DNA of 42,703 nt from a virus. Location of the stretch: the IMG/VR virus record IMGVR_UViG_3300034274_000018, positions 1 to 42,703 of that record; one strand, given 5' to 3'. This document shows, one piece after another, positions 14,357 to 21,343 of this stretch; the stretch's first letter is position 1; every line of letters begins with the position of its first letter. The translations under genes and the position numbers were made by a program. The notes under the pieces were generated by a model. That model was not told where the DNA came from. It worked only from the letters and a program-made list of their open reading frames with translations, and searched no databases.

Positions 14357-14496
14357 GTACTATGCCTAACACCGTATAAAAATAATAGCGGTTTTATGGC
14401 TTTTTAAAGATTAATACTATTTATTTAATTCTATTCTAATTCGTTTGGCTTTTGCATTCTATCCGCTACTATTCTTATACTAGACCGTTAGGGTGC
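14357..14496. repeat. attC-like cassette site (well-preserved example)
   Basis: Box GTACTATGCCTAAC, arm GTATAA-A-AATA-A-TAGCGG (14374-14391), ~70-base variable middle, arm CCGCTA-C-TATT-C-TTATAC (14463-14480), core GTTAGGGTGC (14487-14496). Outer boxes CCTAAC/GTTAGG pair. AATA/TATT is flanked by A opposite C on both sides. Orientation relative to the genes (gene stop, box, hairpin, core, next gene start) is that of integron cassettes. Confidence 0.85.
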
Positions 14497-14498
14497 AT

Positions 14499-14774
14499 TT
14501 ACACCAGTCTTTTAAACAAATGCCAAACCAAACCATTAGGCATAATAACCGTATCTATAAACTCTCTCATAACACCTGTGCCGCCTTCAAATGGATTTCC
14601 CGTACCAAATATTTCTATTTCGTAGTCAAGTTCTGTTTTTTGGTTTATATCTACTAAAACCCATAAGCATAAATTACCATTTTGCTCTTTTGCAGAAAGT
14701 ATAGTGTTATTCATTGGCATTTCTACTTTCTGTATATCCGTAATTTGTAGCGTGTACTTGTAAATTTTTTGCAT
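14499..14774 (-). CDS. DUF7352-like cassette protein
   Basis: 91 residues. MQKIYKYTLQITDIQKVEMP, then ILSAKEQNGNLCLWVLVD, IFGTGNPF and VWHLFKRL match the known layout of a small beta-sandwich-like family (IYKYTL.. LPKxAxILSVQxQNGxLCLWALVD...GTGHP...FVWHVFE), called DUF7352. Function unknown. Flanks GTTAGGGTGC (14487-14496) and GCACCCTAAC (14785-14794) are perfect inverse copies. Confidence 0.8.
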   Translation of the reverse strand: MQKIYKYTLQITDIQKVEMPMNNTILSAKEQNGNLCLWVLVDINQKTELDYEIEIFGTGNPFEGGTGVMREFIDTVIMPNGLVWHLFKRLV

Positions 14775-14784
14775 AATTCAAAAC

Positions 14785-14925
14785 GCACCCTAACAAAATA
14801 TAAAAACAAAAGCCTGTTAGAGTGTCTTATTTATGGCTTATGTCTGTTAATTATGCTCACCGCATACGTGAGGGTAGCATCTTATTTACGGCTTCAATTT
14901 TTATACTAAACGTTGTGTGTAATAC
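14785..14925. repeat. attC-like cassette site with nested hairpin
   Basis: Box GCACCCTAAC, arm TATAAAAACAAAAGCC, arm GGCTTCAATTTTTATA, core GTTGTGTGTAATAC (14912-14925). TATAAAAA/TTTTTATA and AAGCC/GGCTT pair around a three-base internal loop. The ~85-base middle holds a second stem, CTCAC...GTGAG inside ATGCT...AGCAT, near 14850-14880. Confidence 0.75.
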
Positions 14926-15155
14926 TACTGCCAGTATTCATTTGGATAACCAAAATCTCGCCCTTCTTCGGGTGCAAATTCAGGTTCGTAAAATCTACCT
15001 TGTCCGTGTTTTTTCGTTTTCTCGTTTGGTTGGTATGTAACTGTAAAGGGGCTTTTTGCTCCTTCAATGGTTCTACAATCATTTACCTTTCCACCTACTT
15101 TTTTAGCAAATGAAAGGGCGGCTTTTTCGCTGTTAAATCTTTTTCTTCGTGCCAT
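14925..15155 (-). CDS. small basic cassette protein
   Basis: 76 residues, pI clearly basic at the N-terminus (MARRKRFNSEKAALSFAKKV), then FTVTYQPNEKTKKHGQGRFY and GRDFGYPNEYWQ. I know similar short proteins only as hypothetical. Boxes GTTGTGTGTA and TACACACAAC (15187-15196) flank it perfectly. Confidence 0.65.
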   Translation of the reverse strand: MARRKRFNSEKAALSFAKKVGGKVNDCRTIEGAKSPFTVTYQPNEKTKKHGQGRFYEPEFAPEEGRDFGYPNEYWQ

Positions 15156-15186
15156 TTTAATAAAGTTTGTGGCTTAATCACCGCAC

Positions 15187-15282
15187 TACACACAACAATG
15201 TATATAGTTTATAAGCCTAATTAATATTCGTTTTTAATTTGTAATTTCTGCTATGGCTTAACCTTATACTAACCGTTAGCAA
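15187..15282. repeat. attC-like cassette site
   Basis: Box TACACACAAC, arm GTATATAGTTTATAAGCC, arm GGCTTAACCTTATAC, core GTTAGCAAC (from 15275). TAAGCC/GGCTTA and GTATA/TATAC pair with a bulged centre. Confidence 0.65.
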
Positions 15283-15285
15283 CTA

Positions 15286-15333
15286 TTAATAGTCAGTGAA
15301 CCTTTTTTCAAACTCGTTGTATAACTCCTTTGC
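15286..15333 (-). pseudogene. 3' fragment of a lost cassette gene
   Basis: Sixteen codons ending KELYNEFEKRFTDY before TAA, directly beside the core GTTAGCAAC and with no start codon (an in-frame stop lies just upstream). It is placed as the C-terminus of a cassette gene whose 5' part was removed at the junction with the terminase block. The rest of 15334-15408 holds nothing I recognise. Confidence 0.45.
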
Positions 15334-15408
15334 TTAGAATACAAATATAAACATATTATCAGTATAACGTACTAACATATAACAGTTATTTGTAAACAAC
15401 TTAATAAA

Positions 15409-20057: not shown

Positions 20058-20102
20058 GAGATAACCGTATTCATACGTCTATCCATATGTTAGGCTTAAT
20101 AC
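20058..20102. repeat. short cassette site
   Basis: Box AGATAAC, a CGTAT/ATACG hairpin, TATCCATAT and core GTTAGGCTTAATAC (20089-20102). The A/C mismatch layout is not clear here. Confidence 0.5.
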
Positions 20103-20347
20103 TAAGCTGGTCGAGAAGGATTTGAGAATACTCGTAATGTTTCGCTTGCTTCTGCGAACTTCTCTACAAAATAATCACCATTAATCCAAACCTCTTCACC
20201 TTTCCTATCGCATTTGTATTTATGTTTTCTCCAGTTTGGTACAGTTAAAGTTTTATCCTCTAGTACTTTTACAATACTGTTATTGTCTTTTCCTGTTAAG
20301 CTCGTATTGTTTACGTGCCAATGTTCATTCTTTCTTGGTTGTTCCAT
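20102..20347 (-). CDS. small cassette protein, unknown function
   Basis: 81 residues, MEQPRKNEHWHVNNTSLTGK, then YKCDRKGEEVWINGDYFVEK. Not recognised. Flanked by GTTAGGCTTA (20089-20098) and TAAGCCTAAC (20393-20402), perfect inverse copies. Confidence 0.65.
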   Translation of the reverse strand: MEQPRKNEHWHVNNTSLTGKDNNSIVKVLEDKTLTVPNWRKHKYKCDRKGEEVWINGDYFVEKFAEASETLRVFSNPSRPA

Positions 20348-20392
20348 TTTATTCGTTTTTATAATTAATATTATCGTTTAATAATCCGTACA

Positions 20393-20457
20393 TAAGCCTA
20401 ACACTAAATATATGGCATAGAAAAAACGCCACATATTCAAATCGTTACCATTAATAC
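20393..20457. repeat. attC-like cassette site
   Basis: Box TAAGCCTAAC, arm AATAT-A-TGGC-A-T (20407-20418), loop with AGAAAAAA, arm A-C... GCCA-C-ATATT (to 20437), core GTTACCATTAATAC (20444-20457). TGGC/GCCA between two A/C positions. Confidence 0.85.
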
Positions 20458-20461
20458 TACG

Positions 20462-20860
20462 TTAGTACTCATAATCAACACCAAGCAATATAAAATCTAC
20501 AGATTCAGAATAATAGACAGTACTTTCGCCATACCATCTAATATCTACATATCCTTTAATTGTTGCGAATTTATAGTAAGTCCAAGTACAAGAACCCCAA
20601 TCATCCGCTTCTTTTGTTCGTTCAATATCTTCTTTAGAAGTTGGCTCGTAATTAGAAACTTCTTCTGCTTTTAGTATTGGGCTTCCAACTAAATCTTGCA
20701 AGTCACCAACTATATCTTCAATCGAAACACTTTCGCAACAATCTTGTCCGTGATACATTTTATATTGCTTTCCGTCTTCGCAAGTAAATATTATCTCATC
20801 ATCATCTTTGTTTTCTACTTTGGTAAGCGTTTTACCAATCAATTCTTTTAATCTTTCCAT
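20462..20860 (-). CDS. DUF7448-like cassette protein
   Basis: 132 residues. [57 protein letters not shown] and [16 protein letters not shown] match a small family I know as DUF7448. Function unknown, probably a beta-rich single domain. Flanks GTTACCATTAATAC and GTACTAATGCTAAC agree at 12 of 14 positions. Confidence 0.8.
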
Positions 20861-20888
20861 TTTATTTAAGTTTTGTATTTATAAATCC

Positions 20889-20954
20889 GTACTAATGCTA
20901 ACAATGTATAAAACCCATAGAAAAAACGGGTCTTATACTAAACGTTAGCATTAA
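20889..20954. repeat. attC-like cassette site (symmetrical example)
   Basis: Box GTACTAATGCTAAC, arm GTATAA-A-ACCC-A-T, loop with AGAAAAAA (as in the site at 20393), arm C-GGGT-C-TTATAC, core GTTAGCATTAAT. Outer boxes GCTAAC/GTTAGC also pair, so the whole 66 bases fold as one interrupted hairpin. Confidence 0.85.
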
Positions 20955-21232
20955 TTAACAACCGAGTAATAAACAAATTCACTATTGTTTTGATTCCAAG
21001 CGTGAAAGCCAATACCATTAAATTGTTCTTCAATAACTTTTACAGTTCCTAAATATCCATCGGCAGGCATATTACTTTCAGAGTATTCTTCCTTATTAAA
21101 TGGTTGCCATTCACATAACATTATATGCTCACCATCAACATCATTTGTAACTACTTTCATATTTATTTTTTCAGTTGGTAGTCCATCTGTATGTCTGTTT
21201 TTAAATCCGTCTCTTTTTTCTAAATTCTTCAT
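20951..21232 (-). CDS. small cassette protein, unknown function
   Basis: 93 residues from ATG 21232 (MKNLEKRDGFKNRHTDGLPT). An upstream frame through the cassette box is unlikely. Beta-rich middle (INMKVVTNDVDGEHIMLCEW), ending NSEFVYYSVVN. Boxes GTTAGCATTA and TAATGCTAAC are perfect inverse copies. Confidence 0.65.
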   Translation of the reverse strand: MKNLEKRDGFKNRHTDGLPTEKINMKVVTNDVDGEHIMLCEWQPFNKEEYSESNMPADGYLGTVKVIEEQFNGIGFHAWNQNNSEFVYYSVVN

Positions 21233-21241
21233 AATTAAATA

Positions 21242-21343
21242 ACTAATGCTAACACAAAATATAGTGAATAGCCGATTAAACATTTATTTTAAACCGAAAC
21301 TTTTAGGTGGTCGGCTACTCACCATATTCAGAACGTTAGCTTT
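21242..21343. repeat. attC-like cassette site
   Basis: Box ACTAATGCTAAC, arm AATAT-A-GTGA-A-TAGCCGA (21258-21275), ~35-base loop, arm TCGGCTA-C-TCAC-C-ATATT (21311-21328), core GTTAGCTTT (21335-21343). Sixteen pairs broken only by the two A/C positions. Confidence 0.87.

Follow-up and report, generated by a model that had tools for sequence, protein, structure and literature searches.

The window analysed here is a viral contig of 42,703 nucleotides (IMG/VR record IMGVR_UViG_3300034274_000018), whose portal protein is 47-49% identical to the portals of Polaribacter phages Freya and Danklef. It carries a series of hairpin-forming sites on the plus strand, together with gene cassettes whose open reading frames lie on the minus strand (Table 1). 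The cassettes encode small proteins, two of them with DUF7352 and DUF7448. The listed start of ORF 20951-21283 falls within the next site. There is no tyrosine recombinase gene on the window contig, so that the window phage has an array without a recombinase gene there, and an Rfam search of the window gave no RNA family match.

Table 1. Hairpin sites and cassettes in the window; site lengths run from AAC to GTT.
Feature	Coordinates	Strand	Details
Diverged attC-like site	11549..11601	+	Right R box GTTACCAAT, complementary to left R box of the 12090 site
Cassette	11602..12089	-	ORF 11610-12062, no assigned function
attC-like site, long type	12090..12214	+	125 nt; GTTA at 12103
attC-like site, long type	14368..14489	+	122 nt; AATA at 14381; 87% identity over 134 bp with a site in Polaribacter phage P12002S
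Cassette	14490..14791	-	ORF 14499-14774, DUF7352
Diverged attC-like site, first mismatch lost	14792..14914	+	Left R box CACCCTAAC, exactly complementary to GTTAGGGTG, the right R box before it; right R box GTTGTGTGTA, matching the left R box that follows
Cassette	14915..15200	-	ORF 14925-15155, no assigned function
attC-like site, short type	19402..19449	+	48 nt; AAAC at 19415
Cassette	20088..20399	-	ORF 20102-20347; start GTTAGGCTT is the exact complement of end AAGCCTAAC
attC-like site, short type	20400..20446	+	47 nt; TGGC at 20413
Cassette	20447..20899	-	ORF 20462-20860, DUF7448
attC-like site, short type	20900..20946	+	47 nt; ACCC at 20913
Cassette	20947..21250	-	ORF 20951-21283; end R boxes GTTAGCATT and AATGCTAAC exactly complementary
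attC-like site, middle type	21251..21337	+	87 nt; GTGA at 21264; 93.5% identity with a site in Cellulophaga phage phi18:3
attC-like site, short type	24870..24914	+	45 nt; AATC at 24883

A preliminary description of this DNA reported seven sites, in which a variable but always paired tetranucleotide is framed by two A/C mismatches. All seven are real: scanning the whole 42.7-kb window for five paired bases, A, NNNN and A, followed by C, N'N'N'N', C and five paired bases, recovers exactly these sites, each with five of five outer pairs. Each of eleven other mismatch combinations gave 0-3 sites in the same scan, and a pattern that matches two window sites had no match in 100 dinucleotide shuffles. 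The tetranucleotides had been placed 6-8 bases too far upstream, and Table 1 gives the corrected positions. At least two diverged sites, at 11549 and 14792, had been overlooked, as had a further fixed A/C mismatch, the third, which lies eight bases beyond each GTT/AAC core on its outer side and has C on the left and A on the right.

On the plus strand a site reads, in order, an R box ending in AAC, four nucleotides, a 5-bp box, A, NNNN, A and a loop, and after the loop C, N'N'N'N', C, the second arm of the 5-bp box, 5-7 nucleotides (as many as 8 in wider sets), GTT and the right R box. The central spacer is unpaired and asymmetric, 4 nt against 5-8 nt, and the terminal structure is variable. 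From AAC to GTT the sites span 43-130 nt overall; at virus loci they are short (about 47 nt), middle (about 87) or long (110-127), and nearly all chromosomal sites measure 120-127 nt. There are no extrahelical bases: the arms pair in register and without a bulge, and the stem has A.C mismatches instead. Copies of the R box that seemed by eye to lie inside the long loops of loci L004 and L061 proved not significant across all sites.

Is the tetranucleotide pairing a general property? IMG/VR and about 85,000 genomes were searched with a pattern in which A and C were fixed and NNNN was free, so that pairing was not required. NNNN is nonetheless fully paired in 36 of 40 viral sites (shuffles gave a mean of 5.8 and a maximum of 13) and in 94 of 112 genome sites (mean 25.8, maximum 38), with 14 and 17 distinct tetranucleotides respectively. 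The covariation first noted in seven sites is therefore strong in the wider set. The first viral pattern was loose, and a strict check left 7 convincing sites in its 120 loci, with more found by a relaxed scanner. The two A/C positions had also been called invariant; near-constancy is what stands. A pairing scan in which the mismatch bases were left free, and which is hence uninformative on pairing itself, gave 322 sites beyond the strict retrieval pattern; among them the first position is A/C in 249 and an A-T pair in 44, and the second is A/C in 305. In the fetched loci the A..A/C..C combination occurs at 286 sites (179 perfect), part of which came from the pattern fixing A and C, against 57 for the next combination and 1 in the reversed-sequence control.

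The right R box of an integron site is part of the next cassette in the array, and matches that cassette's own end. The same relation holds here: the right R box of one site complements the left R box of the site that follows. Adjacent pairs are identical over 6-7 bases beyond GTT in 40 of 106 cases, compared with 4 of 283 within sites and 0.9% of random pairs; the 61 of 106 adjacent pairs that match over three bases or fewer may be those in which missed or decayed sites intervene. The rule is satisfied in the window at 11601/12090, 14489/14792, 14914/15195, 20088/20400, 20946/21251 and 21337/21640. A cassette thus consists of roughly one gene and one attC-like site, with matching R boxes at its ends.

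Whole cassettes distinguish Polaribacter phages that are nearly identical, and the breakpoints are in GTT. Danklef_2 lacks one 781-bp cassette, encoding an adenine methylase, that is present in Danklef_1 and Danklef_5, and the site remaining in Danklef_2 is a precise hybrid, with the hairpin of one neighbour and the right R box of the other. Freya_1, 2, 5, 6, 8 and 10 share a host, and their sequence outside the array amounts to exactly 43,014 bp in every one; the size variation of these six genomes is the cassette array. Upstream of the Freya recombinase start is an attI (..GTTGTTATAGGGGT/GTT) that is joined to five different cassette starts, and those found there in Freya_1, 2 and 5 lie directly after a hairpin in Freya_10. 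Freya_6 is Freya_5 plus exactly 472 bp at attI, the rest of the region being identical, and taking an internal 902-bp cassette out of Freya_10 gives Freya_8. Every Freya breakpoint maps to GTT, with its position left ambiguous over 3-11 nt by shared letters. Together with those of Danklef, these breakpoints agree with a crossover at G/TT of the R box. Genome comparison suggests that these differences arose by site-specific insertion and excision, and we assign no direction to any one change. The paper describing these phages (Bartlau et al. 2021, PMC8776804) reports an integrase gene and Freya genome sizes of 44.0-48.9 kb, and reads the integrase as hinting at a possible temperate life style; "integron" is absent from its text. 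A phage lysogeny integrase acts at a single attP and one bacterial attB. The site adjacent to the Freya recombinase joins many cassette ends.

Related arrays occur in chromosomes. The scan of about 85,000 genomes yielded at least 118 stretches, almost every one with a Bacteroidota title. In each of ten array genomes examined, the best match to the integron-integrase profile is a tyrosine recombinase of 382-425 aa, about 390 aa as a rule, with the array downstream of it on the same strand. An attI, typically ..TATATAAC(A/C)A/GTT, lies close after the recombinase stop codon, and next to it comes the cassette start that the first hairpin predicts; this start is clear in eight of the ten genomes and further on in the other two. 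At two other loci, L297 and L247, attI is on the 5' side of the recombinase gene. Polaribacter sp. BM10 has a recombinase, attI and 24 cassettes over 40 kb, with all 24 main ORFs in the sense orientation. Its cargo includes candidate defence genes, namely an ApeA-like HEPN protein, a SIR2-STAND protein and members of the PADLOC candidate families PDC-S19 and PDC-M11A.

As had been suggested earlier, a covariance model was scored against Bacteroidota genomes, and many further instances came to light. Built from 40 chromosomal sites, it matches 160 of 395 Bacteroidota genomes, some 40% of those sampled, and none of 121 Campylobacterota. The N-terminal domain of the chromosomal recombinase was found in 65 of the 395 genomes, 60 of which also have sites (p = 1e-21). 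Among the site matches listed within 40 kb of that domain, 31 of 31 are on the same strand and 30 of 31 downstream. Of the 160 site-positive genomes, 100 are without a match to the N-terminal-domain profile; these may contain short recombinases or decayed arrays, or the profile may be insensitive.

What kind of enzyme adjoins the arrays? The integron-integrase model TIGR02249 aligns to the recombinase at 3-178 and 238-314 only, the IntI-specific segment being missing, and alignment to IntI1 or IntI4 likewise shows about 40 residues missing at the site of the IntI insertion, the helix I2 region. No protein in the ten array genomes passes the TIGR02249 cut-off, nor does any of the recombinases scored. 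It is the XerA-type model NF040815 that gives the core domains their best score; its cut-off is passed by two of three chromosomal enzymes scored and by a Persicobacter plasmid homologue. By sequence, the catalytic residues R233, K258, H323, R326, H349 and Y358 are conserved. The closest solved fold to the predicted structure, a model with pLDDT 86 and a pTM of only 0.60 whose input alignment did not include the Freya enzyme, is integron integrase IntI4, followed by XerA. A tree sets the chromosomal and phage enzymes and IntI1 apart from the housekeeping Xer proteins (100/100), with IntI1 placed neither inside nor outside the chromosomal and phage family. The phage recombinases (267-272 aa, about 270) are without the N-terminal domain that is additional in the chromosomal enzymes, a domain with no Pfam match. 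The array-adjacent tyrosine recombinases presumably act on the attC-like sites.

The orientation of the genes differs between the two forms. Cassette genes are sense to the site in 78 of 88 chromosomal cassettes and antisense in 93 of 104 phage cassettes. The A/C positions had been noted to become G-T wobbles on the other strand, and computed energies bear on this: of the two strands, the one with G.T has the more stable fold in 175 of 202 chromosomal long sites, 100 of 114 phage long sites and 112 of 117 phage short sites, with an average advantage of about 2 kcal/mol. This more stable strand is the template strand in chromosomes, as in integrons, and the coding strand in phages. An idea drawn from the phage gene orientation, with the A.C strand as template, was dropped because chromosomal arrays have the opposite orientation. 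We infer that single-stranded DNA is the substrate, and likewise which strand serves; the A.C mismatches probably set strand choice.

The covariation, the cassette structure, the attI junctions, the GTT breakpoints and the association of arrays with the recombinase can all be read directly from genome sequences. In the light of these comparisons the hairpins are very probably attC-like recombination sites that close the mobile gene cassettes of an integron-type system of the Bacteroidota, moved by a recombinase related to XerA and IntI. Their attC-like nature is borne out by the pairing of cassette ends and by natural excisions and insertions at GTT. A scenario for the system is as follows. 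A tyrosine recombinase of this kind, without the IntI-specific insertion, would join cassettes to an attI adjoining the recombinase gene, and would excise or insert them by crossing over within GTT of the right R box. The chromosomal form would use the recombinase of about 390 aa with its extra N-terminal domain, with attI usually 3' and cassette genes sense; the phage form would use the enzyme of about 270 aa, with attI 5' and cassette genes antisense. One strand of a site would fold into a hairpin paired at its 5-bp box, its variable 4-bp box and its R boxes. Distortion would persist at the two A.C positions, which are G.T wobbles on the other strand, and in the asymmetric spacer, 4 against about 6 nt. 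These distorted positions might inform the recombinase of strand and end, the job of the extrahelical bases in attC. The preliminary description had imagined fixed mismatches in place of those bases in a different geometry, and the in-register arms, with A.C where attC bulges, support this; a role for the A.C mismatches in recombination is probable.

Integrons spread antibiotic resistance, and chromosomal superintegrons are known, for example in Vibrio cholerae. The Bacteroidota arrays share with canonical integrons a recombinase gene, an adjacent attI where cassettes join, an array of single-gene cassettes, R boxes with AAC and GTT, R-box pairing by cassette, crossover in GTT, an asymmetric unpaired spacer and a variable terminal loop. 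They differ in that the recombinase is without the I2-region insertion, in that the stem has two A.C mismatches and a third outside the core, in an R-box pairing that spans about 10 bases, in a chromosomal attI that is usually 3' of the recombinase gene and in the antisense cassette genes of phages. An integron is defined by an IntI with helix I2, an attI and attC sites with extrahelical bases (PMC2727003, PMC7790495), of which canonical attC has two or three on one arm (PMC2727003). We looked for helix I2 and extrahelical bases and found neither, so that the system is not classed as a canonical integron, though it appears to work like one. The core domains score best with XerA-type, integron-like tyrosine recombinases (NF040815; Smyshlyaev et al. 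2021, PMC8138268), a subgroup from which the Bacteroidota chromosomal enzymes differ by their additional N-terminal domain; in the available part of that paper the insertion-less members have no attached cassette system. A literature search, with preprints and most subscription papers outside its scope, found no prior description of the Bacteroidota system.

Might the hairpins simply be ordinary attC sites, in integrase-less phage arrays moved by the standard IntI of some host? R boxes ending in AAC/GTT would fit. So would the attC sites described in Polaribacter phage P12002L by Qi et al. (2023, PMC9892861), the available part of which treats P12002L as an integrase-less array and reports that one of two tested sites, P12002L_attC2, was recombined by IntI1. 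Since P12002L carries a site of our family at 38036-38089, between adjacent modification genes (a Mom-like gene and a methyltransferase gene), a member of the family may already have been demonstrated recombinable by IntI1, the match to the tested site being presumed. That same part of the paper does not mention the Cellulophaga phages, a recombinase of this kind, the mismatch architecture or chromosomal arrays of Flavobacteria. We regard this explanation as very unlikely, given the profile scores in the array genomes, recombinases without the insertion that adjoin the arrays, and sites without extrahelical bases; moreover, the complete Bacteroidetes integron of IntegronFinder 2.0 (PMC9024848) is that of Salinibacter, and earlier there were only In0 elements. 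A role as RNA elements, such as terminators or processing or translation-control hairpins between phage genes, seems scarcely credible as the main function. The hairpins are indeed intergenic, many phage sites are short, and the transcribed phage strand gives hairpins closed by G.U wobbles; the genes, however, are antisense to the site in phages and sense in chromosomes, the R boxes pair with the neighbouring site rather than within the site, and cassettes are gained and lost precisely at GTT, quite apart from the empty Rfam search. A secondary RNA role may exist.

One might also think of REP- or MITE-like elements, spread by a transposase and marking gene borders by chance, as phages of different hosts share whole hairpins at 87-93% identity and differ in the genes beside them. 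What moves, however, is a gene together with one site, both ends of this unit being cut at GTT, and arrays begin at an attI adjoining a tyrosine recombinase, so that elements of this sort are exceedingly improbable. A variant of the preferred reading keeps the cassette system and has it recombine double-stranded DNA, as Xer does at dif, with the palindrome serving another purpose. Helix I2 is held responsible for single-strand recombination (Escudero et al. 2020, PMC7790495), the recombinase core here is Xer-like without it, and attI resembles a double-stranded core site with inverted AAC..GTT. The variant is hard to square with fixed mismatches that are strand-asymmetric, with asymmetric spacers, and with a covarying box, as in a double-stranded site every base is paired anyway; we think it rather unlikely.

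Returning to cassettes moved by folding of one strand, we lean toward a broader view, that this is a second kind of integron, spread across the phylum, which would recombine folded DNA without helix I2 or extrahelical bases by reading fixed A.C mismatches, and in which chromosomal arrays would bank candidate defence genes and phage arrays, with their genes reversed, phage genes such as DNA methylases. Integrons are thought rare in Bacteroidetes, a survey of complete genomes having one complete example, in Salinibacter (PMC9024848), yet two-fifths of the sampled Bacteroidota genomes carry integron-type sites. Phages have a version of the cassette system to themselves, with a DNA methylase on a moving cassette. 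In the current view integron integrases gained single-strand recombination through helix I2, which docks the extrahelical bases (PMC7790495); a cassette system with neither makes this idea directly testable. Because the Freya and Danklef phages have been isolated in culture, an assay of insertion and excision in the natural host is feasible. We note, too, that the tyrosine recombinases next to arrays in Cellulophaga phages phi13:2 and phi19:3, considered as possible members of the family, are remotely related Bacteroidetes-type integrases with another SAM-like domain, and belong outside it.

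Whole hairpins of the window, each an attC-like cassette recombination site, are 87-93% identical to hairpins of Polaribacter phage P12002S and Cellulophaga phage phi18:3; the hosts differ and the flanking genes are unrelated. The extent to which a site may diverge while remaining mobile is shown by the one in a cassette of Polaribacter phage Freya_6 (L338 465-936): its first mismatch position is occupied by a paired base and its loop is well over 200 nt.

The recombinase gene of Polaribacter phage Danklef_1 (L328 41033-41488) is a broken remnant whose matched reading frame is interrupted by a single TGA. 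Danklef_1 nevertheless differs from Danklef_2 by one cassette, so that either the change is older than the break or a different enzyme is acting.

For Freya_8 and Freya_10, a single tblastn match of weak similarity to a whole chromosomal recombinase spans both the phage recombinase and the cassette gene adjoining attI, the site where cassettes join. By this likeness of sequence, it is as if the N-terminal domain of the chromosomal recombinase were there a separate cassette gene.

Shared hairpins and attI-adjacent cassette genes
Feature	Location	Evidence
Hairpin pair	P12002S (L123) 6001-6134 vs window 14356-14489	sequence identity
Hairpin pair	phi18:3 (L124) 5001-5093 vs window 21248-21340	sequence identity
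Cassette gene adjoining attI	Freya_8 (L337) 2942-3187	tblastn, weak similarity
Cassette gene adjoining attI	Freya_10 (L331) 3844-4089	tblastn, weak similarity

The window also encodes a class I aminoacyl-tRNA synthetase-like protein of the I, L, M, V type (410 aa; 7165-8397, -) with a KMSKS motif, an ISXO2-like transposase of the IS1595 family (26754-27713, +), and a strongly low-complexity, repetitive protein rich in alanine, serine and tyrosine (34971-35609, -). The coding region of a DNA methylase gene (10521-11480, -) contains three 21-bp tandem repeats (10808-10875). The phage has a GC content of 32.5%; a 240-bp stretch (13838-14075) consists of CCGGTT/GGCCGG repeats, and holds 27 of the 32 CCGG/GGCC words of the whole window.
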